Assembly (NCBI GenBank): GCA_021813555.1
Contig: JAKAKG010000062.1
Coordinates: 1-50,028, forward strand
DNA length: 50,028 nucleotides
Source of the DNA: Acidobacteriota bacterium
Lineage (GTDB): Bacteria > Acidobacteriota > UBA4820 > DSQY01
Reading direction: 5' to 3'
Shown here: positions 19,237 to 42,489 of the stretch, one piece after another
Position numbering within the stretch: position 1 is the first letter of the stretch
Layout: every line of letters begins with the position of its first letter
The notes under the pieces: generated by a model
What the model saw: the letters and a program-made list of their open reading frames with translations, nothing else
The model's database searches: none
What the model was told of the DNA's origin: nothing
Position numbers and translations under genes: made by a program

Positions 19237-21126
19237 TCAGTCCTTCACTCCCGGGTGCCGCTCGATGAACCGGTAGAGGGTGCGCCTGGGAAGGCCGCTC
19301 AGCCGCGCGGCCTCGGTCACGTTTCCCGCCGCCCGATCCAGGACGGCCCTGAGGTAATCCTCCTCGAACCGCTCCAGGGCCTGCTTGTAAGGGAGCCCTT
19401 CGACATCGGGAGGCGGCGCCAGCGAGGTCCGGTCGGCGGCGCCCAGGAGCCGTCTCACGTCGGCCTCATCAATGAGCGCTCCCAAAGCGCTGGCCGACAG
19501 GTGGTTCACGGCGCTCTGGAGCTGCCGGACGTTGCCCGGCCAGGGGAACTCCTTCAATGCCATGAGGGCGCCCGGGGAGAACCCCGCGGCCGTCCCCGGC
19601 TTTTTGAAAGCTTTGGCCAAGAAGGCGCTGACGAGGACGGGAATATCGGCGGGGCGCTGGCGCAAAGGCGGCAGGGGGATTTCAAACGTCGTGAGGCGAT
19701 AGAAAAGATCCTCCCTGAAGGCCTTGCCGGCGATGGCCTCTCTCAGGTTGCGGTGGGTGGCGGCGATGAGGCGCACGTCCACCTGGCGCTCCTTGTCATC
19801 TCCGACGCGCTTGATGACGCCAAACTGGAGAGCGCGCAGGACCTTGGCCTGGAGAAGGAGGTCCATGTCGCCGATCTCGTCCAGGAAGAGGGTGCCCCCT
19901 TCGGCCTGTTCAAAGACCCCCGAGTGGTCCCGGTCGGCTCCCGTGAACGCGCCGCGCCGGTGCCCGAAGATCTCGCTCTCCGCGGTCCCCGCGGGCACCG
20001 CAGCGCAGTTGAGGGCGATGAAGGGCGCCGAGGCCCTCGCGCTGTGCAGATGGATCCACCGGGCGAAGATCTCCTTGCCTACCCCCGTTTCCCCAAGAAG
20101 GAGGATGGGGTAGGGCGAAGGCGCAGCATCCGCCGCGGAGGCCAGGGCCGCTTTCAGCGCGGCCGAATCTCCAAGAATCTCCCCCGGGTCGATGCGCCGC
20201 CGGAATGCCTCCGATATGGCCTGTTGGTGCCGGGCCTCCAGGTCCGCGCGGTTGGACGCCGACCGGCGGTCCCACAAGGCCTCAAGGAGGACGGTGGCCC
20301 AGGTGGGCCAGGATCCGAGGACGGTCATGGGGCCCACGGGATCGTGACACGGCTTGCCCCAGTCCACGTAGATCAGGGCGGCGATCCTTTTCCCAGCGAA
20401 GAGCGGATAGACGAGGATCTGGGCCCCCGAAAGGCCCTTCAGGCTCTGCCCCGGCTTGAGGACGTCCATGGGCGACCAGACGGGGCTGCCGAGCTTGATG
20501 GCCTCCTTGATGGTGCTCTGGCTCAGGAGCGTGGAACCCTCCTCCTCCGAGGACGCCTCATAGCGGCAGGACGTCTCCACGCGAGTCTGGAAGTGGCCCG
20601 CTTCGAGTTCAGACGTGGAGAAAAAAAAGACGCCCTCGGCCTCGAATTGGGTGCGCAAAGCCTGGGCGAGGCGCTGGTCCAGATCCTCCATGCGAGGATC
20701 CAGGCGGACGGCTTCCTCGATGAGATTGGGGATGCCCAGCTTGTTGTCGCACGTGGCGCAGGTGGTGTGTGCCACGAAGGGCACGGCGGCCATGGAAAGG
20801 GTCTCCTCCGAATCCTCGCCGCCCATTTCGGAAAGCGCCTCCAGCCGAAGGGCCACCTCTCCGAGCTTGATCACGTCCCCCGCGGTGAGGAGCACCTCTT
20901 CGTGCTTGACCCCGTTCGCGAAGAGGCCGTTACGGCTCTGAAGATCCCGTACGCGCCACCCTTCCTTTGAGAGAAAGATGCGGGCGTGATGGCGGGAGAC
21001 GGTGGGGGAATCCAGGACGAGGTCGTTGTCCGGGTCGCGCCCGATGAGACAAATGGGCTTGTTCAGGGGAAAGGCGAGGGGCTCCTTTCCCACCACCGTA
21101 AGCTGCATGGGCCCGGTCTGCGCCAT
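19237..21126 (-). CDS. FHA-domain sigma-54 activator (FHA-GAF-AAA+-Fis)
   Basis: 629 aa. FHA domain at ~23-97 with [19 protein letters not shown] and SRNGLFANG, which binds phosphothreonine peptides. A TTCATC cysteine pair is at ~121-126, and a GAF-like domain at ~140-285. The AAA+ domain has Walker A GETGVGKE (345-352) and an intact GAFTGA loop (392-397). A C-terminal Fis helix-turn-helix ([24 protein letters not shown]) ends the protein. This layout links Ser/Thr phosphorylation to sigma-54 transcription, as in myxobacterial FHA activators. GAGGAGG lies ~8 nt before the ATG. It sits between the hydrolase and the aspartyl protease on one strand. No -24/-12 element was found beside it. Confidence 0.9.
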
Positions 21127-32796: not shown

Positions 32797-34344
32797 TTAT
32801 CGGCGGTGGACCTTGGGGAGGAAGCTGAAGTTGCCGTCGGGGGGCAGCTCCACCCCCTCCACGTCCTTCTGGGTGACGCACACGGCGTCGGGATACCAGA
32901 GGCTGATGTAGGGCGCGTCCCGGGCCAGGAGGCGCTGGACCTTCGCGTAGACGGCCTTGCGGCGCTCCAGGTCCGCGTCCCGAGCGCCCTCCTCCAGCAG
33001 GCGGTCCACCTCGGGGCTGCTGTATCGTCCCCGGTTGAGGCCGTCGGGCGGAAAAGCCCGGGAGGAGAAGCGGAGGCGGAACCCGTCCGGGTCCGTCACC
33101 CCCACCCAGGTTAGGCCGAAGGCGTCGAAGTCTCCGCGCCGCACGTCGCCGTAAAAGGTGCCCCACTCCAGGGATTGAATCTGGACGTCCACGCCGATCT
33201 TGGCCAGGTCTTGGGCGGCGGCCACGGCGATTTGGCGGGAGACCTTGTTCTCGGAAGTTTTATAGGAGAGCCGGAACCGCACGCCTCCGGCCCCGCGCGG
33301 AAGCCCCGCCGCGTCCAGAAGGCGCTCCGCCTCGGCGGGGGCGAAGGGAACGGGCCCGCCGGCAGGATCGTAGGCCCAGTGTTCGGGGCAGAGCAGGCCC
33401 GTGGCGGGGCGCGCGAAATCCCGGAGGATGTAATGGATGATGGCGCCGCGGTTCACGGCGAGGGCGAGGGCGCGGCGCACCTCGGGCCGGTCCAGCGGGG
33501 GCCGGGAACAGTTCAGGCCGATGTAGGCGTAGCTGGCGCCCGGGGCGCGGTACAGGGGGTAGCCGTGGGCGGCGAAGTAGGCCAGGGAGTCGGGAGGGAG
33601 GTCGTTAACCACCATGTCCACGCTCCCGCGCCGCATCTCCAGCCCGCGCACCACGGGATCGGGGATGACCTTGAAGGCCACGGTGGCGCTCGCGGCCCGC
33701 CGGACGGCGTAGGGGTTGCGCTCGAACACGAGCCACAGGCCTCTGTCCCAAGACGTCAGGCAGTAGGGGCCCGCGCCCACGGGCGGCGCCTCGGGGACGT
33801 GGCCCGCGGGGACGATGCCGATGTTCAGGCCCGAGAGGAAGGCGGCGCAGGGCTCCCGCAGTTCCACGTCCAGCTCGTAAGGGGAGGGAACGGCGATGGA
33901 GGCGATGCGGTCCAGGTCGCCCTTCTTGAAGGAGGCCACGGCGCCCGTGCGCACCGAATCCAAGGTGTACGCGGCGTCCCGGGCCGTCAGTTCCCTCCCG
34001 TCGGAAAACCGGATGCCGCGCCGCAGGAGGAAGCGGTAGCTGGTGGGAGAGGGCTGGGACCAGGATTCGACGATGTCGGGCACGGGTTTGAAATCGGGCC
34101 CTATGGTGAAAAGGCCCCGGTAGAGGAGCCGGAAGGCGCGGTCCGCGGCCACGTCCGATCCCACTCGCGGGTCCAGGCTCCCCGGGTCCTGCTCCACTCC
34201 GACCACGAGCTCCGCCTTGCGGGGAGCCCGCCCGCACCCCGACAGCAACAGGGAAAGGAGGAACACGGCGAGGGCTGCCAGGAGGAGCCTGCGTCCGAGG
34301 CTTGAGCGGTGGAGGCCGCCCAGGGCCCTGTTACGGGGCCTCAT
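32797..34344 (-). CDS. Peptide/muropeptide-type solute-binding lipoprotein (SBP family 5)
   Basis: 515 aa, DppA/OppA/MppA fold. Lipoprotein signal with lipobox LLSGC (C37). Family landmarks: GVEQDPGSLDPRVGSD, ADRAFRLLYRGLF, W/F-rich FLLRRGIRFSDGRELTARDAAYTLDSV, VRRALALAVNRGAII and the C-terminal YAKVQRLLARDAPYISLWYPD. Its ATG lies inside the end of anmK (14-nt overlap), so they are one operon; that points to uptake of cell-wall peptides or anhydro-muropeptides (MppA-like) rather than general dipeptides. No permease or ATPase genes are in the window. Confidence 0.85.
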   Translation of the reverse strand: MRPRNRALGGLHRSSLGRRLLLAALAVFLLSLLLSGCGRAPRKAELVVGVEQDPGSLDPRVGSDVAADRAFRLLYRGLFTIGPDFKPVPDIVESWSQPSPTSYRFLLRRGIRFSDGRELTARDAAYTLDSVRTGAVASFKKGDLDRIASIAVPSPYELDVELREPCAAFLSGLNIGIVPAGHVPEAPPVGAGPYCLTSWDRGLWLVFERNPYAVRRAASATVAFKVIPDPVVRGLEMRRGSVDMVVNDLPPDSLAYFAAHGYPLYRAPGASYAYIGLNCSRPPLDRPEVRRALALAVNRGAIIHYILRDFARPATGLLCPEHWAYDPAGGPVPFAPAEAERLLDAAGLPRGAGGVRFRLSYKTSENKVSRQIAVAAAQDLAKIGVDVQIQSLEWGTFYGDVRRGDFDAFGLTWVGVTDPDGFRLRFSSRAFPPDGLNRGRYSSPEVDRLLEEGARDADLERRKAVYAKVQRLLARDAPYISLWYPDAVCVTQKDVEGVELPPDGNFSFLPKVHRR

Positions 34345-35536
34345 CGAAGAACGACACTCCCGGCGTGATGTCGCCCAGCACCACGGCCGCCTTGGCTCCC
34401 GTGGCCGCGGGCACGTTGGAGGGCCAGCCGTGGAGGGTGGCGTCGGCGAGGACGGCCATGAGGACGGCCTCCTTGGCCTTGCCGGGAATGGCGTATTCGT
34501 CGGAGGTGGCGAACACGAGCTTGGGGAAGGCCCCCCGCAGGCTCTCCATGAGGACGGGGTTGTTGGCCCCGCCGCCGCTCACGATGATCTCCTCGTAGCG
34601 CGCCTTCTGGGTGCAGAACTCCAGGATGCCCATGGCGATGCTTCGCACCGTGAAGGCGGCGAGAGTGGCCAGCACGTCGGGCCCGCGCAGCTCGGGGAAC
34701 CGCAGGAGCGCCCCGTCCAGAAAGTCGGACCCGAAGGTCTCCTTGTCCGCCGACTTGGGCGGCGCCATCTTGAGAAAGGGATGTTCCAGGAGGGCGGCGA
34801 GGAAGGCCTCGTGCACCCGTCCCTTGCGCGCTGACGCCCCGTCCACGTCGAAGGCCTGCTTGCCCCCCGAGTAATGCCACGTGGCCAGGTCCATGAGGCA
34901 GTTGCCCGGCCCCGTGTCGAAGGCCAAAAGGCCGTCCAGCCCGGCTCCCGCCGGCATGGCCGTAAGGTTGGCGATGCCGCCGATGTTCAACACCAGCCGG
35001 CTTCGGGAACGGTGGTGGAAGAGGATGTAGTCGAGGTAGGGAGCCAGGGGAGCGCCCTGGCCTCCCGCCGCCATGTCCCGCCCGCGGAAGCCCGATACCA
35101 CGGTGATGCCCGAGCGCTGCGCGATGACGGAGGGCGCGCCCACTTGCAGCGAATTGGTCACGGCGAAGCCGGGGTACTGGACCGGGGCGGGATGGTGGTA
35201 CAGGGTCTGCCCGTGCGATCCCGCCGCCGAAACATCGGCGGGCGCCACGGCGGCCTTCTTGCAAATGTGCAGGAGGGCGTGGCCGAACAGCTCCCCCACG
35301 TAGGCGTCCAGCAGGGCCACGTCGCGGGCGTTGCCCGCCGCCGCGCCCTGGCACGACAAAATGCGCTGGCGGACCCCCGAGGAGTATTTCAGGACGTCGT
35401 GGGCCACCAGCGTCACGGCCACGTCGGTGCCCGTCCCCTCGATGCGCACCAGCGCCACGTCTACCCCGTCCGCGGATGTTCCCGACATGAGGCCCGCCAC
35501 GAGGCGGCTTTCAGATGGATCCTGGTGGTCCCGCAT
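34331..35536 (-). CDS. anmK: Anhydro-N-acetylmuramic acid kinase
   Basis: 401 aa, typical length. Phosphorylates 1,6-anhMurNAc while opening the anhydro ring, giving MurNAc-6-phosphate for recycling. Hallmark GLMSGTSADGVDVALV at the N-terminus, SHGQTLYHHP, NIGGIANLT, FDTGPGNCLMD and SGGGANNPVLM. AAGGAG lies 6 nt before the ATG. Its downstream partner is a solute-binding lipoprotein, so the pair probably handles muropeptide recovery. Confidence 0.95.
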   Translation of the reverse strand: MRDHQDPSESRLVAGLMSGTSADGVDVALVRIEGTGTDVAVTLVAHDVLKYSSGVRQRILSCQGAAAGNARDVALLDAYVGELFGHALLHICKKAAVAPADVSAAGSHGQTLYHHPAPVQYPGFAVTNSLQVGAPSVIAQRSGITVVSGFRGRDMAAGGQGAPLAPYLDYILFHHRSRSRLVLNIGGIANLTAMPAGAGLDGLLAFDTGPGNCLMDLATWHYSGGKQAFDVDGASARKGRVHEAFLAALLEHPFLKMAPPKSADKETFGSDFLDGALLRFPELRGPDVLATLAAFTVRSIAMGILEFCTQKARYEEIIVSGGGANNPVLMESLRGAFPKLVFATSDEYAIPGKAKEAVLMAVLADATLHGWPSNVPAATGAKAAVVLGDITPGVSFFDEAP

Positions 35537-35587
35537 GGCTGCTCCTTCGCCGCCATCCTAGAACGGCCTGGAGGCGGAGGCAAGCGG

Positions 35588-35702
35588 CGCGGGAGAGGGA
35601 GAAAGTGGAAAGCGGAATTCGGGAGGCGGAATTCGGAAAGCGGAAAGGGGAAAGCAGATAAGCGGCCAGAAGCCAACGGCCAAAGGCCAACAGCCAACAG
35701 CC
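35588..35702. repeat. Composite GGAATTCGG / AGCCAACAG simple-sequence tract
   Basis: The first part repeats GGAAAGCGGAATTCGG-type units, like the tracts at 651-692 and 43711-43815. The second part repeats GGCCAACAGCCAACAG, like 31726-31751. It lies between anmK and the DUF4388 gene, directly before the latter's promoter. Confidence 0.75.
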
Positions 35703-35711
35703 TTACAACCA

Positions 35712-35740
35712 TTGACACTCCGAGGTGCCGCCTGTAGCAT
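35712..35740 (+). promoter_or_regulatory. Sigma-70 promoter of the DUF4388 gene
   Basis: TTGACA (6/6), 17-bp spacer, TAGCAT (4/6). Predicted start ~35747, leaving a ~12-nt leader. Confidence 0.65.
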
Positions 35741-35758
35741 GACTCGGGGGAGGACAGG

Positions 35759-37096
35759 GTGCGAAAAACGATCCCCGTTCAGCCCGATGGATCCATCCAT
35801 ATCCCCAAGGACGTGGCGGAGGAGGTCTTCGGGAAGACCCGCGAAGCCGTGGTTCACGTCCGGTCGGGCTGCCTTGTACTCTCTCCCGTGTTCGTGGACA
35901 TCGAGTCGGGGCAGTTGCCGCAGATCCTGGCGTCGCTCCACCGCTTCGAAGCGTTGGACACGGTGTTGAGCCATCACTTTGACAGGGCCAGCGGCCAGGC
36001 CGTCCAGTTCGAGGGGGACCTGTCGGTCCTTTCCCTCAACGATGTGTTCCTGTTCCTATCGGCGAGCAAGAAGAGCGGCGCCCTGGTGGTGCAGGACAAG
36101 GCTCGGTGGGGCTTCTTCTTCCAGAACGGGAACTTGGCCTTCGCCGCGAGCGACGAACTCAAAGCGTCGCTGGCCGCCTACCTGCTCAAGCGGCAGTTCG
36201 TGACCGAGGAAGACCTGGTCCAAGCCACGAAAGACCTCGGCCGCGTGGATGCCCTCAAGGTCCTCCTCGACATCTCGGGTCTGACGCAGGCCGAGTTCAC
36301 GGAGCAGCGTCTCCGGTGCGTCGAGAACACCATCTTCCACGTGTTCACCATGGGGCGAGGGCGGTTCAGTTTCATCAACGGAGAGGTGCAGCGGCCCTTT
36401 GATCTCACCCTTCCCATGTCCACCACGAACTACGTCATGGAGGCCACGCGCCGCATCGACGAGTGGGCCCACATCAAGGACCGGGTTCCCGAGCCGGGGA
36501 CCCTCCTTGAATTGGCGGAGGACGTGACCGCCTCTACGGCCCTCTCCTTCGAGGAGGAGCAGGTGCTGAGCCAGGTCAACGGCCACCGGACCATGGAGGA
36601 GGTGCTCTCGCGCGCCAAAGCGGGGGACATGGAAGGCAAGAAGGCCGTGGCTTCCCTCATCGCCGCGGGCCTCATCCGCGCCGCGAAGCCCCAGGCGCCC
36701 CAACCGGTCCCGTCGGCCCCGTCCGCCGCCCTCTCTTCCGAAGAGCGCGCCGGCCTCCTCTCGCGCATCGACAGCTACAACAACGTGTTCTCGACGATCT
36801 ACCAGGCCCTTGCCGTGGAGGCGGGGAGCAAGGTGGACGTCGTCTTGGGGGCGTTCTTCAAAGGCCTCGAACCGGGAACGTCGCTCCTGTCCGGCATGGG
36901 ATTTTCCCAGGAGGGAACCCTTCCCCAGGAGCTCCTCCTGTCCCGTCTGGCGGAGCTTCCCGACGGGCGTGAGGCCACCCTCGTGAGAGACCTCAACGAG
37001 CTCCTGTACTTTCAGCTTTTCGCGGTGAAAAACGCCCTCGGACCCGAGATGGAGGCGGGCATCGTGGAGATGGCCCGGTCCCTCCTGCACGCCTGA
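35759..37096 (+). CDS. AbrB-like/DUF4388 protein
   Basis: 445 aa, soluble. Residues 1-45 (IPVQPDGSIHIPKDVAEEVFG, then VVHVRSGCLVLSP) look like a swapped-hairpin AbrB domain. A DUF4388 domain follows (FEGDLSVLSLNDVFLFLSASKKSGALVV ... FFFQNGNLAFAAS), as in PatA N-terminal regions of deltaproteobacterial and cyanobacterial signalling proteins. The second half has a winged-helix-like segment (VLSQVNGHRTMEEVLSRA) and a Pro-rich linker before a last helical domain. The whole suggests a DNA-linked signalling adaptor; partner unknown. GTG start preceded by GGGGAGGACAG. Confidence 0.72.
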   Translation: MRKTIPVQPDGSIHIPKDVAEEVFGKTREAVVHVRSGCLVLSPVFVDIESGQLPQILASLHRFEALDTVLSHHFDRASGQAVQFEGDLSVLSLNDVFLFLSASKKSGALVVQDKARWGFFFQNGNLAFAASDELKASLAAYLLKRQFVTEEDLVQATKDLGRVDALKVLLDISGLTQAEFTEQRLRCVENTIFHVFTMGRGRFSFINGEVQRPFDLTLPMSTTNYVMEATRRIDEWAHIKDRVPEPGTLLELAEDVTASTALSFEEEQVLSQVNGHRTMEEVLSRAKAGDMEGKKAVASLIAAGLIRAAKPQAPQPVPSAPSAALSSEERAGLLSRIDSYNNVFSTIYQALAVEAGSKVDVVLGAFFKGLEPGTSLLSGMGFSQEGTLPQELLLSRLAELPDGREATLVRDLNELLYFQLFAVKNALGPEMEAGIVEMARSLLHA

Positions 37097-37112: not shown

Positions 37113-37958
37113 CTACGGCTCCTGGATCAGGGCCGAGCCAGCGACGAGGGGGGCCGAATCAGAGGGGCGTCCGTCGTCGGAGGAGAACCAGGGGCGGAAG
37201 GGGTTCGCCATGTGGGCGTGGGACGCCCAGAACACCGCGGCTTTGGGCCGGCCGAAGTGGTAACCCTGGGCCATGGGGATGTCCAGGGCCATGAGGGTGA
37301 GAAGCTCCTCTGAGGTTTCCACCCCCTCCACGATCACCTTGCTCCCCAGCTTCCTCGCCACGCTGGCGGCGCCCGCCACCAGGGCCTGCTTTCGCGCCGA
37401 GCGATGAATGCACTTGGCGAAGGCCCGGTCCAGCTTGACGTACTCCGGCTCGAACCACAGCAGGTGCTGCAGCCCCGAATACGCCGATCCGAAGTCGTCC
37501 AGGGCAAACCGGAACCCTCGCTTGCGCAGGCCCCGAAGGATTCGGGCCAAGGCCCGTGGCGTCTCGGTCCTGGACCGCTCCGAAATCTCCACCACCACCG
37601 CCTCGGGGGGGATCCCGCTGGATTCCATGAGCCTCAGGTAGTGGTTTTGGAGGTGCCGCATGTGCAGGAGGGTCTGGATGTGCACGTTGATGAACAGGAG
37701 GCCCATGGGCACCAGGAGCCGGCCCGCCCGGAGCGCCGCGGCCACGCAGGCCGCGTCCAGGTCCTGAATAAGGCCGGGGGACAGGGGGCTGGCGTTGCCG
37801 AAGATGCGGCCTGGGTTGCCGAGGGCCGTGGACTGCGGCCCGCGGAGAAGGGCCTCAAATCCCATGATGCGGCCCGTGTTGAGCTGCACGATGGGCTGGA
37901 AGGCCGTGGACACGAACCCCCGGGCCAATAGATCGCGGACCTCTTCTTGCGCGGTCAT
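37113..37958 (-). CDS. EAL-domain c-di-GMP phosphodiesterase
   Basis: 281 aa consisting of an EAL domain with a short N-terminus. Catalytic residues look intact: GFEALLRGP, N in FINVH, E in EISER, ALDDFGSAYSG, KLDRAF, EGVETSEE and QGYHFGRP. It should hydrolyse c-di-GMP to pGpG. It follows the lone receiver gene by 37 nt and is driven from the same sigma-54 promoter at 38410-38425 (inference). The ATG at 37958 has GAGGTGA 5 nt upstream; a GTG at 37967 overlaps that site. Confidence 0.9.
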   Translation of the reverse strand: MTAQEEVRDLLARGFVSTAFQPIVQLNTGRIMGFEALLRGPQSTALGNPGRIFGNASPLSPGLIQDLDAACVAAALRAGRLLVPMGLLFINVHIQTLLHMRHLQNHYLRLMESSGIPPEAVVVEISERSRTETPRALARILRGLRKRGFRFALDDFGSAYSGLQHLLWFEPEYVKLDRAFAKCIHRSARKQALVAGAASVARKLGSKVIVEGVETSEELLTLMALDIPMAQGYHFGRPKAAVFWASHAHMANPFRPWFSSDDGRPSDSAPLVAGSALIQEP

Positions 37959-37995
37959 GACGCTCACCTCGATGCGCGAAAACCCCGCGCGGCCT

Positions 37996-38379
37996 TCAGC
38001 TCACGGCGGCAGGAATGCCCAGTTCGTGAATGGCGCGGGTCAGGATCTGCAGTTCCACCGGCTTTTCGAAGTAGTAGGCGGCCCCCATGTCGAAGGCCCG
38101 CTGCATGATGGCCGGGTCGCCGTACCCCGTCATGAGAATGACGCGGGTGTCCTTGCACTTCTCCTTGACGAAGCCCAGCAGGTCCAATCCTTCAGCGTCC
38201 AGGGTTCCAGAGAGGCGGATGTCCGAGAGGACCACGTCCATGTGCTCCTCCCGGAGGATCTTCTTGGCGGCCTGGGCATTGACGGCCGTTAGCACTTCCA
38301 CGTCATCGTTTTCCAGCAGAGCCTTAAGGCCGAATACGGTGGCGGTCTCATCGTCGACAATCAAAATCTTGTAAGTCAT
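37996..38379 (-). CDS. Single-domain response regulator (receiver only)
   Basis: 127 aa, CheY-like. Acidic residues D9/D10, phospho-acceptor D53 (VVLSDIRLSG), T84 and K106 are in place; no output domain. AGGAGG lies 5 nt before the ATG and the predicted sigma-54 leader is ~20 nt. It may dock to the downstream EAL protein or act as phosphate sink for the kinase at 39900-41378. Confidence 0.9.
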   Translation of the reverse strand: MTYKILIVDDETATVFGLKALLENDDVEVLTAVNAQAAKKILREEHMDVVLSDIRLSGTLDAEGLDLLGFVKEKCKDTRVILMTGYGDPAIMQRAFDMGAAYYFEKPVELQILTRAIHELGIPAAVS

Positions 38380-38409
38380 GGTGGCCTCCTCGACAACCGC
38401 CTCATATTA

Positions 38410-38425
38410 AGCACATCTGATGCCA
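38410..38425 (-). promoter_or_regulatory. Sigma-54 promoter of the receiver-EAL operon
   Basis: Minus strand TGGCATC, AGAT, GTGCT: 9/12 consensus matches with GG and GC exactly 10 bp apart. Predicted start ~38399, 20 nt before the receiver ATG. Confidence 0.7.
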
Positions 38426-38484
38426 GTATGTTTACTTCCCAGCGGCCTCGTGGTTACGCGGGTTCATGGATTTTCAGCGGGGCT

Positions 38485-38506
38485 GCCGTCTCGAAGATGA
38501 GACGGC
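38485..38506. promoter_or_regulatory. Perfect palindrome, candidate enhancer of the receiver-EAL promoter
   Basis: 8-bp arms GCCGTCTC and GAGACGGC separated by 6 bp. Its centre is ~96 bp upstream of the predicted sigma-54 start, the usual distance for an activator site, and it lies just past the NtrC-like gene. It could instead be that gene's hairpin terminator, though no U-run follows. Confidence 0.55.
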
Positions 38507-38533
38507 TGCTGGCTCATGACCAGGACAGGCGGG

Positions 38534-39877
38534 TCAGCGAAGCCGGTCCAGGTCGATGCCATGCTGGGTCACTTTCCGGTACAGGGTGGCCCGTGAGATG
38601 CCCAGGGCGTGGGCCGCCTCGGGCACGTGCCCCTTGACCTTGCGCAGGACCTTCACGAGGTGAGCCCTTTCGGCGGCGTCGAGCCCGAGGGATTGCTCTT
38701 TGGAGATGTCCTGGCTCTGGCCGTCGGGCTGGACCAGCCCCGAAAAATGCTCGAGCCGGAGGACGGGGCCGTCCGAAAGAATGTAGGCCCGCTCCAGGAC
38801 GTTGTGAAGCTCCCGAATGTTTCCCGGCCAGGAGTAGGCCGTCAGGATGGCGATGGCCTCGCTGGACACTTCCACATGGCCCCGCCCGCGGGTGATGAAC
38901 TTGAGAAGGTGATCCACCAGGTCGGGCAACTCCTCCAGGCGGTCTCGCAGTGGCGGCATGGTGATCGTGAGGGTGTTGATTCGGTAGAGGAGGTCCTGGC
39001 GGAACCGTCCGCTCTGGATGAACAGCTCAAGATCCTGGTGCGTCGCGCAGATGAGACGAAAATCGGACACCCGCTCCTCCACCCGTCCTAGGGGGCGGAA
39101 GCGCTTTTCCTCCAGAACCTTCAGAAACTTCGCCTGAACCGCCACGTCCATGTCCCCGATCTCGTCGAGGAACAGGGTGCCGCGGTGGGCCCGGTCCAGC
39201 AGGCCGCTTTTCGAGTCCACGGCTCCCGTGAAGGCCCCCTTCGCGTGGCCGAAAAGTTCGCTTTCCAAGAGCTCACCCTTGAGCGCGGCGCAGTTCAACT
39301 CGACGAAGGGCTCGGCGGGGTCGGGGCCGTGGTCGTGGATGTAGCGGGCAACCAATCCCTTGCCCGTGCCCGTCTCGCCCCTCAGGATGACGGGGCTCCG
39401 ATGGCGGAGGGCGGCGGCGAGGTGGGCGCTGATTTTCTGCAGCGCCTCGCTCTCTCCGAAGAAGGGCGTCATGGTGGCCGGACGCTCCCTCAAGGCCCTG
39501 TTTTCCCGTCGCAGGGATCCGATCTGGATGGACTTGGTGAGGAGGACGTCCAGCTCTCTGAGGTCCACTGGTTTGGTCAGGAAGTGGTCGGCTCCCAGGC
39601 GCATGGCTTCTACGGCCATGGCGATGGAGCCATGGCCCGTGATGACCACGATGGGCACCGTAGGGTCGTGCCCCCTAATCTCCTTGAGGAAGTCGATCCC
39701 GCTCCCGTCCGGCAGCTTCACGTCCAGGAGGAGGGCGCTGAACGTGCGCCGGGACATGGCTTCTCTCGCTTCGGCGAGGCAGGCCGCCTCGGAGACGGTG
39801 AAGCCCTCGGTCTCAAGGTATTTGCTGACCCCGAACCGGACGGCGGGCTCGTCGTCAACCATCAAGATGGACTTCAT
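38534..39877 (-). CDS. NtrC-like sigma-54 response regulator
   Basis: 447 aa. Receiver domain with D8/D9, D52 ([11 protein letters not shown]), T80 and K102; AAA+ domain with Walker A GETGTGKG (Gly in place of the usual Glu after GK), intact GAFTGA loop, DEIGD Walker B and arginine finger region; C-terminal Fis HTH ([25 protein letters not shown]). It starts 22 nt after the histidine kinase stop, which is its expected partner. Sigma-54 promoters flank this kinase-regulator pair at 38410 and 42220, so it probably drives the signalling genes on both sides. Confidence 0.92.
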
Positions 39878-39899
39878 CGCTTTCCCCCGCCAGCGTCGT

Positions 39900-41378
39900 T
39901 CAACAGCCTGTTCGAGGCAAGGTTACCAGAAATCGGGCCCCCGGAGAAGGTGCGCACGGCTCCGCCTCCAAGGTCCCGCCGTGGTGGACGACGGTGCTCC
40001 TGGCCACGGCCAGGCCTAGGCCCACGCGCCCTTGCCGCGTGGTGAAGAAGGGATCGAAAATGGCCGCGGCACCTTCCTCGGGGAGGCCGGGACCGTAGTC
40101 GCGGACGGACACGACGAGTCTCTCGCCGGCGGCCGTGGCGACGACCTCCACGGGGGTATCTTCCGGGCCAAATGCCAAGGCGTTTTCTATGATTTCGGAA
40201 AGGGCCCAGGCGAGCGCGCCTCCGTCTCCCGTAAGCGTTGCCGTCCCCTCGGGGAGGGCCACCTGGACCCGGGAGAGGTCCATGCCTGGCCAGCGTTCCT
40301 GCACCAGGGCCACGCTGTTCTGTATCAGCTCCTCGATGCGAAGGGTGGTGCGGACGGGAGAGCTGTACGCGGACGCCGCCAGCAGCATGAACCTCTGGAC
40401 CAGGCGCTCCAGGCGCCGCACCTGCTCCATGATGTAGTCCGTATAGGTCTGCGTCTCGATTTCGCCGCCCACCTTCTTCTGAAGGGCCTGGATCACCGTG
40501 CTGATGGCGAAGAGCGGGTTGCGGATCTCGTGGGCAACCCCTTGAAGGAGCTTTTGGGTGAGGTCGATCTGGCGCCGCTCTCCGGCGAGCGTTTCCAGCT
40601 TGCGCTGCTCGGTCACCTCGTGCAGCACGTGAAGGACCGCCGGCGTGGCATCGAGCAGCACTCGCTGGGTGGAGGCCAGAAAGATCCTGCCCGAAGAGGC
40701 GTCGATCCACTCCTGGTCAGCCGCATCCGCCTCATCACATAGCCCTGGGAAAAGATCCGAACAGCGTGCGCCGATGCACTCCCGAAAAGTTTTGCCGGTG
40801 AAGACCGACACGGCCATGTTGGCCCTGAATAGGCGGCCCTTTGCATCATGAAAGAAGAAGAGGTCCCCCGACGCGTCGAAGGCCTTCTCCCACTCCGCCT
40901 TCGCCCGGCTCATGGCCCCGTAGTGGAGAATCCTCTCCACGGCCATCCTTACGATCCCCAAGAAAAGGGCCCGGGAACCGGTGCCGTCCTCCGCTTCTTC
41001 GGAGCGGCTCCGGATCAGGAGCGCCGCGTGCCTGGCCGACGCGGAGATGGGGAAGAGCTGCCACGACCCTTCTCCGTGCAGGCCAAGGCAGCGGAGGAGG
41101 GCTTTTTCCGTGAAGGCTCCGTCCAGAGTCAAGCTTTCCCATGGGCCGACGCGGACCTTGCATGGGGTCTCGTCCAAGATGTCCCACGCCAGGAAACCGT
41201 TCCCACTCTCGTCGGGGAATACCAGCCACGCGGCCTCGGCCTCGAACACGGCGAGGATGGCCTGGCGGAGAGGAGGGAGGAGGGTCTCGGGCCGGAGAGA
41301 AGCCCCGGCCTGCTGGGCGAGGGCCGCAAGCGCGCTGATCGCCGTTGCGGCAGGCGCGCCCGCGTCCTCAGCCGTCAC
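39900..41378 (-). CDS. Cytoplasmic sensor histidine kinase (GAF-PAS-HisKA-HATPase), NtrB-like
   Basis: 492 aa, no TM helices. GAF-like region (~30-150), PAS domain (~160-260; FDASGDLFFFHDAKGRLFRAN), phospho-acceptor VAHEIRNPLFAIST (H283), and an ATPase with ENALAFGP, VRDYGPGLP and VGLGLAVARS. Cysteines within the PAS segment (C201, C206, C214) might sense redox state (speculative). GTG start, no strong Shine-Dalgarno. Followed by the NtrC-like regulator, so an NtrBC-type pair. Confidence 0.9.
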   Translation of the reverse strand: MTAEDAGAPAATAISALAALAQQAGASLRPETLLPPLRQAILAVFEAEAAWLVFPDESGNGFLAWDILDETPCKVRVGPWESLTLDGAFTEKALLRCLGLHGEGSWQLFPISASARHAALLIRSRSEEAEDGTGSRALFLGIVRMAVERILHYGAMSRAKAEWEKAFDASGDLFFFHDAKGRLFRANMAVSVFTGKTFRECIGARCSDLFPGLCDEADAADQEWIDASSGRIFLASTQRVLLDATPAVLHVLHEVTEQRKLETLAGERRQIDLTQKLLQGVAHEIRNPLFAISTVIQALQKKVGGEIETQTYTDYIMEQVRRLERLVQRFMLLAASAYSSPVRTTLRIEELIQNSVALVQERWPGMDLSRVQVALPEGTATLTGDGGALAWALSEIIENALAFGPEDTPVEVVATAAGERLVVSVRDYGPGLPEEGAAAIFDPFFTTRQGRVGLGLAVARSTVVHHGGTLEAEPCAPSPGARFLVTLPRTGC

Positions 41379-41414
41379 GGAAGACCGCCCGCTTGAAAGG
41401 AAGAGACAAGGGTT

Positions 41415-41447
41415 GCCGCCCCGGGCTGGGAGGGGGCCCGGGGCGGC
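41415..41447 (-). terminator. Strong GC hairpin after the zinc-ribbon receiver gene
   Basis: 12-bp perfect stem (GCCGCCCCGGGC / GCCCGGGGCGGC), 9-nt loop, ~25 nt past the stop on the minus strand. The downstream U content is low, so termination may be partial, letting transcription reach the kinase. Confidence 0.5.
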
Positions 41448-41472
41448 GTGGGAGAAAAATGGGAAGGGAGGG

Positions 41473-42147
41473 TCATGGGGCGGCGGTGGCCGGAGTCAGC
41501 CAACTGGCCAGCACTTCGCCCAGTTTTTCAAAGGAGATGGGTTTGGTCAGGTAGTCATCGGCCTGGTAGTCCCTGAGAACCTCGATCCGCTGGCTGTCCT
41601 TCTTGTACAGGCCGGACATGACGATGACCTTGATGGCGCGAGTCTCGGGATCCTCCTTGAGGCGCCGGCACAGGTGCTTCCCGTCCAGGTGGGGCATCAT
41701 GTGGTCCGTGAGGACGAGGTCCGGCTGGTAGGCCTTGGCCAGGGCCAAGGCCTCGATGCCGTCCTTGGCGAGGAGCACGCCGTACCCCATTCCTTCCAGG
41801 ACGCGGAAGGCGATGCGCCGAGTGTCCGGTTCGTCGTCCGCCACCAGGACCAGGGGCCGGCGGATGGGATTTCCCAGCTCCGAGGGGGGCTGCCCCATTT
41901 CGATGCAGAAGTTCCGAAGGCGGCGGCGCCAAAGGGCCGGAGGAGCCGCTTCCCAAAAGGACTTCCTCGCCTCCGGTCCGGCGTCGCAAAAGCACTTGCC
42001 GCAGTGGGGGCACCGGAGGGTGGGGTTGTCGGTGATGCACTCGCACCACGGACTTTTACAGGCATCGAAGACTTTCCCGCAGCTCAGGCAAAAGACCTCG
42101 TAACGCCCTTCGGTCTGGGACGTGGGGTCGGACGTAATAGGGCTCAT
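41473..42147 (-). CDS. Receiver-domain protein with N-terminal cysteine-rich zinc ribbon
   Basis: 224 aa. Residues 20-54 hold nine cysteines (FCLSC, DAC, WCEC, RCPHCGKCFC), enough for two zinc sites. A short helical linker (60-95) leads to a complete receiver domain (D104/D105, D148 in LVLTDHMMPHLDG, S178, K202). A zinc ribbon ahead of a receiver is unusual; it might bind nucleic acid, a protein partner or metal/redox signals. ATG at 42147 has GGGAGGA 7 nt upstream. A 10/12 sigma-54 promoter lies 73 nt upstream. Kinase and NtrC-like genes follow. Confidence 0.82.
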   Translation of the reverse strand: MSPITSDPTSQTEGRYEVFCLSCGKVFDACKSPWCECITDNPTLRCPHCGKCFCDAGPEARKSFWEAAPPALWRRRLRNFCIEMGQPPSELGNPIRRPLVLVADDEPDTRRIAFRVLEGMGYGVLLAKDGIEALALAKAYQPDLVLTDHMMPHLDGKHLCRRLKEDPETRAIKVIVMSGLYKKDSQRIEVLRDYQADDYLTKPISFEKLGEVLASWLTPATAAP

Positions 42148-42219
42148 GTGGAATCCTCCCTGCTCGGCGCACCTTCCGGCACGGGCCGAAGGTGGTGCGA
42201 TGCCTTCGCACTTGTTAAA

Positions 42220-42235
42220 AGCAAGGCCGATGCCA
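42220..42235 (-). promoter_or_regulatory. Sigma-54 promoter of the zinc-ribbon receiver gene
   Basis: Minus strand TGGCATC, GGCC, TTGCT: 10/12 consensus positions with GG-N10-GC spacing, followed by a T tract. Predicted start ~42209. A stem (CACCTTC / GAAGGTG) can form in the leader ahead of the Shine-Dalgarno. Confidence 0.8.
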
Positions 42236-42247
42236 ATCGGTGGCTCG

Positions 42248-42296
42248 GAACGGTTGGCTCCGGCGGTGGCATATCCTGGAATGATAGGAACCGTTC
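42248..42296. promoter_or_regulatory. Paired AAC-N-GTT dyads upstream of the sigma-54 promoter
   Basis: GAACGGTT (42248-42255) and its exact inverse AACCGTTC (42289-42296). Each is itself a small dyad (AACGGTT; GAACCGTTC), centres ~40 bp apart, about four helical turns. Possible activator binding sites at roughly -43 and -83. Confidence 0.45.
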
Positions 42297-42489
42297 GGAA
42301 ACACATTCAGCACTTGACGAAGTCGCATCCGTGAGACGCATGGCCCGCGTAAAGTCTCAAGATTGCGACGGATGGCCGTCGATCGGGTACGGCATCACGT
42401 TGACGGTCCTCTCATCGGCGCATGATCCCCAAGGGCGCGGCCCGCAAGCAAGCCCAAACCATGGGAAAATGCTCAGGGAGAATGTTGCC

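Follow-up and report, generated by a model that had tools for sequence, protein, structure and literature searches.

Five adjacent genes in an Acidobacteriota genome probably form an autoregulated NtrC-type two-component switch that has c-di-GMP breakdown as one of its outputs. The wiring of this switch, comprising two sigma-54 promoters, the dyads upstream of them and the near-exclusive association of both with the gene block, is well supported by sequence comparison. In the proposed circuit, a histidine kinase would phosphorylate an NtrC-like activator, which would bind GTCTC-N6-GAGAC dyads and, as comparison of related loci supports, drive sigma-54 RNA polymerase at two promoters. Promoter P1, with a tandem dyad, heads the genes for a zinc-ribbon receiver, the kinase and the activator and would close a positive feedback loop, and promoter P2, with a single dyad, heads the genes for a lone receiver and a stand-alone EAL protein and would permit their induction. 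The EAL protein, judging from its intact catalytic residues, would lower c-di-GMP, and the phosphorylated lone receiver most likely gates this EAL partner, as the receiver does in RocR-type fusions, which would complete a coherent feed-forward loop. The zinc-ribbon receiver may act either as a phosphate competitor or as a metal- or redox-responsive output.

Architecture of the gene block

The block occupies the minus strand of the 50,028-nucleotide stretch of DNA analysed here (the window) and runs from 42147 to 37113 in the order zinc-ribbon receiver, histidine kinase, NtrC-like activator, lone receiver and EAL protein. An initial annotation made from the DNA letters had described five same-strand genes with these domains, and Pfam searches and inspection of the sequence bear this out. 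The zinc-ribbon receiver (41473..42147, 224 amino acids) joins a Pfam Response_reg domain to an N-terminal cysteine-rich, zinc-ribbon-like domain in which cysteines 20, 23, 35, 37, 46, 49, 52 and 54 are invariant across all aligned homologues. This N-terminal domain matched no Pfam family, the AlphaFold2 model of the protein has a pLDDT of 81, and both a PDB sequence search and a fold search with the protein returned matches to the receiver domain only. Translation more probably starts at the ATG at 42147, which follows a GGAGG, than at 42306, a reading that would traverse promoter P1. Zinc-ribbon receivers form a paralogous family with about four full-length copies per genome (G000:C35, C192 and C42, with relatives L086, L094 and L095), and the scan made found no full-length homologue outside Acidobacteriota. 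We rejected the paralogues as further members of the circuit: no paralogue examined carries a sigma-54 element plus dyad.

The four remaining genes encode a PAS-containing histidine kinase (39900..41378, 492 amino acids; HisKA, HATPase_c and PAS_4), the activator (38534..39877, 447 amino acids), the lone receiver (37996..38379, 127 amino acids; assigned by Pfam Response_reg and orthologues) and the EAL protein (37113..37967, 284 amino acids; Pfam EAL, 1e-48). The activator has the receiver, AAA+ domain and Fis-type HTH of an NtrC-type sigma-54 activator by Pfam, and the GAFTGA motif can be read in its sequence. In alignments, both extra receivers retain the acceptor Asp, the Thr/Ser and the Lys. 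The EAL protein can be aligned to BlrP1, RocR and PvrR and keeps the catalytic residues E-x-L-x-R, N, E, DD, K, E and Q among six orthologues and relative to BlrP1, and we predict that it is an active c-di-GMP phosphodiesterase.

Several other features of the window were recorded. A 12-bp GC-rich hairpin with no T-tract separates the zinc-ribbon gene from the kinase (41415-41447), occurs also in G001, and might be an attenuator or processing site that lowers read-through into the kinase and activator. A convergent DUF4388 gene and an AnmK gene adjoin the block (34331-37096), as they do in G001, G005 and G006. Two more sigma-54 activator domains (1176-1676 and 19678-20178) and a strong -24/-12-like site at 2330 on the plus strand lie elsewhere in the window.

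Two conserved sigma-54 promoter elements

P1 (TGGCATCGGCCTTGCT, 42220..42235, minus strand; TGGCATC-GGCC-TTGCT, 10/12) precedes the zinc-ribbon receiver, and P2 (TGGCATCAGATGTGCT, 38410..38425, minus strand; TGGCATC-AGAT-GTGCT, 9/12) precedes the receiver-EAL pair. Both have the GG-N10-GC spacing and the TGGCAY-N5-TTGCW context of a sigma-54 promoter, so that the match counts and exact spacing given in the initial annotation stand. The genome encodes rpoN (G000:C139, 3e-62), and no sigma-70-like site was found in the P1 or P2 promoter region. Genome-wide, TGGCATC-N5-TGCT occurs 11 times, against 0 occurrences of a reversed control. Scored with an approximate matrix based on the published consensus, P1 reaches 17.0 bits in the window, a value unmatched in 30 shuffles of the window. 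P2 reaches 12.3 bits, a score equalled or exceeded by 4 sites per 50 kb versus 1.7 expected, and on its own is within chance.

P2 is convincing because it is conserved. Loss of the -24/-12 elements in homologous loci had been named at the outset as an outcome that would speak against the promoters; instead, all seven homologous loci in the family have P1 (scores 16.5-19.3), and P2 is clear in four of six (12.3 in the window and G001, 18.1 in G003, 19.3 in G006), weak in G004 (10.4) and absent in G005. Wherever the element occurs, the weak G004 copy included, it lies 46 nt upstream of the receiver start codon (5/6 loci).

A shared dyad as candidate enhancer

Comparison of the regions upstream of P1 and P2 revealed a common GTCTC-N6-GAGAC dyad, one half of which is often GTCGC/GCGAC. 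The P2 candidate enhancer (38488..38503) is the core of an 8-bp palindrome at 38485-38506 that had already been noticed; the palindrome is real, its core is conserved, and in four genomes a single copy of the dyad lies at -78/-79 relative to the element. P1 has two candidate copies, a promoter-proximal one (42322..42337; GTCTC-ACGGAT-GCGAC on the minus strand) and a distal one (42354..42369; GTCGC-AATCTT-GAGAC on the minus strand), spaced 32 bp apart here. Five genomes have the 32-bp spacing, about three helical turns, and G004 has one of 33 bp; the enhancer sites of glnAp2 are likewise about 32 bp apart. In several genomes one of the two P1 copies has two mismatches. The initial annotation had placed the P1 dyad at an AAC-N-GTT pair (42248..42296), which exists but among homologous loci recurs only in the congener G001; the conserved pair lies farther upstream, at 42322-42369, beyond the interval annotated (37113-42296). 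We rejected the AAC-N-GTT pair as the P1 enhancer, as it is missing outside the genus, and judge it to be outside the circuit.

A dyad with at most one mismatch accompanies P1 in 7/7 loci and P2 in four of the five loci that have an element, the exception being the weak P2 of G004; 1.5% of 180-nt stretches carry such a dyad. A strict composite of dyad, 55-115 bp and -24/-12 element yielded 9 matches in nine family genomes, every one at P1 or P2, and a half-site composite yielded 21 matches versus 1 in the control. Across 297 Acidobacteriota genomes, a similar composite matched nine times, seven of them at this block (control 0), and the two remaining matches (G143, G259) may be chance. A dyad with no more than one mismatch lies 78-160 bp upstream of six of 25 sigma-54-like sites in the genome, and downstream of none of them. 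These patterns make GTCTC-N6-GAGAC the probable enhancer, which the activator of the block would read. The dyad is assigned to this activator by linkage, because the genome encodes about 26 sigma-54 activator domains, a number that counts against self-wiring.

Near-perfect dyads with sigma-54-like sites also occur at at least four unlinked positions: before a beta-barrel outer-membrane protein (G000:C8:5262-5423; L013/L239), a thioredoxin-like/DUF255-type protein (G000:C45:15524-15645; L002/L240; promoter and dyad present also in G001:C116), a secreted protein with an HExxH-like motif (G000:C138:11125-11300; L128) and a short lipoprotein-like ORF (G000:C191:273-366; L241). These four sites, with the dyad 78-160 bp upstream, are a possible wider regulon. 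Some sigma-54-like sites in these genomes additionally lie directly 5' of pilin-like genes (GFTLIELL, GFSLMELM and GFSLIELL) at L023, L218 and L231.

Conservation within and beyond the family

The family belongs to the Acidobacteriota and is known here only from metagenome assemblies; named relatives are the Acidobacteria MAGs BP8.bin17, WY3.bin59, DBS2-1.bin89, BP9.bin43 and WY3.bin21. A comparison of gene order in relatives, proposed with the initial annotation, found the five-gene order of this genome (G000) kept in G001, G003, G005 and G006 of the same family, with both promoters conserved there except P2 in G005. The wiring is not uniform. G005 is without P2, and G004 combines its weak, dyad-less P2 with a rearrangement in which the kinase lies outside the P1 unit (kinase, P1, zinc-ribbon receiver, activator, lone receiver, EAL). 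A G002 contig carries the zinc-ribbon receiver and an NtrC-type activator with no kinase between them. Of the NtrC/sigma-54 loop first proposed, the promoters of the activator's own block and of the receiver-EAL pair are strongly supported by their conservation together with one shared candidate enhancer, but a kinase within the autoregulated unit is not universal.

In an EAL search of 199 Acidobacteriota genomes, six family genomes gave close relatives, G001 gave a paralogue, and single relatives came from G012 (same order) and from G039 (another family). Kinase, activator, sigma-54 element, receiver and EAL follow one another in this sequence at the G001 paralogue and in G039, and G012 has a sigma-54 element, two successive receivers and EAL close to a contig end. 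None of these three loci has a zinc-ribbon gene next to the activator or a GTCTC-N6-GAGAC dyad ahead of the element, but differently spaced TGAGAC/TGAGAA half-sites occur at the G001 paralogue and in G039. Only the one family was seen to have the zinc-ribbon gene and P1, so activator-P2-receiver-EAL looks like the older arrangement, to which the zinc-ribbon receiver with P1 would have been added in the family. In G039 (L290; G039:C88, 8697-10828), a further receiver and a CheA-like protein with an Hpt start and a CheW-like end come after the receiver-EAL pair, neighbours that suggest a link to motility or taxis.

Relation to known regulatory systems

Autoregulation of NtrC-type operons through paired enhancers is classical, as in the glnALG operon of enteric bacteria, for which the glnAp2 enhancer sites and autofeedback have been described (PMC3870243). 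The block resembles NtrB/NtrC glnALG, with its two strong upstream enhancer sites, in having a kinase-activator pair and a proposed positive autoregulation from a sigma-54 promoter with two candidate enhancer sites upstream, and differs in the sequence of the dyad and in its outputs, which are extra receivers and an EAL protein rather than glutamine synthetase. AtoC and the PEP-CTERM regulator PrsR share the receiver-AAA-Fis architecture and are among the top-scoring named models for the activator, but the activator scores far under their curated cut-offs (AtoC, 354 vs 714; TIGR02915, 326 vs 502.6 bits) and also under that of the NtrC model NR(I) (TIGR01818, 349 vs 558.6 bits). By these cut-offs it is not NtrC, AtoC or a PEP-CTERM regulator.

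RocR and PvrR likewise combine a receiver with an EAL phosphodiesterase, and the EAL protein of the block aligns with both; theirs is a single protein, whereas in the block the receiver and the EAL protein are encoded separately, by neighbouring genes that follow a sigma-54 promoter. The constant pairing of the two genes suggests a split version of RocR-type regulators, in which the kinase could control both the synthesis and the activity of the EAL protein.

Alternative explanations

The dyad could be read at sigma-54-dependent promoters by another activator, which would make the block one target in a larger network rather than self-wired. The number of activator domains in the genome and the near-perfect dyads at a few unlinked promoters are compatible with this, but the strict composite occurs only at the block in the nine family genomes, the dyad accompanies the block in different genera, and related half-sites are found at module paralogues whose activators are related. 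No other activator examined in the genome has a closely similar HTH overall (one shares its short GISRAT stretch), and we consider control by another activator quite unlikely. An ordinary sigma-70 operon, with the P2 palindrome as a terminator of the activator gene and -24/-12 matches that arose by chance, is highly improbable. The palindrome does lie 31 bp past the activator stop and is hairpin-forming in this genus, and P2 by itself does not exceed chance; yet no T-tract follows it, in G003 and G006 the stem is imperfect with the half-sites still there, and the same dyad recurs upstream of P1, with no gene on that strand ending there. The conserved elements and spacing, and the lack of sigma-70-like sites at both promoters, also argue against it. 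We rejected the palindrome as a terminator given the missing T-tract and the poorly conserved hairpin stem.

A further question is what the extra receivers do. They might mainly be phosphate sinks that damp the kinase-activator pair, not outputs, as their intact phosphorylation residues and their position behind promoters of the very activator they would compete with would allow. The lone receiver, however, always stands beside EAL, even in other families, a hint that the two are specific partners, and a pure sink would have no need of an eight-cysteine domain. A direct receiver-EAL partnership accounts for the constant pairing at least as well, and a predominant sink role appears somewhat unlikely. 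The reading we favour remains the autoregulated switch with the EAL protein as an output.

Significance

Among the papers searched, none was found that describes this kinase-activator-receiver-EAL module or its GTCTC-N6-GAGAC dyad, and neither GTCTC nor GAGAC is present in the main text of the Desulfovibrio sigma-54 regulome study (PMC4641369). On a speculative and, in our estimate, unlikely extension, the zinc-ribbon receiver would be a new phosphorylation-dependent signalling protein whose eight-cysteine site senses metal or redox state, recruited together with P1 into an older Acidobacteriota kinase-activator-receiver-EAL module; were this true, c-di-GMP breakdown would hinge on a kinase signal plus a metal or redox input. 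Extra receivers in an autoregulated loop become open to test in two cases, the lone receiver-EAL pair and the family of zinc-ribbon receivers. Sequence now allows target sites to be proposed for one of the roughly 26 sigma-54 activator domains in this genome. For a putative c-di-GMP-lowering switch of a kind that we did not find described for Acidobacteriota, the analysis supplies a concrete wiring diagram together with promoters and a candidate enhancer sequence.
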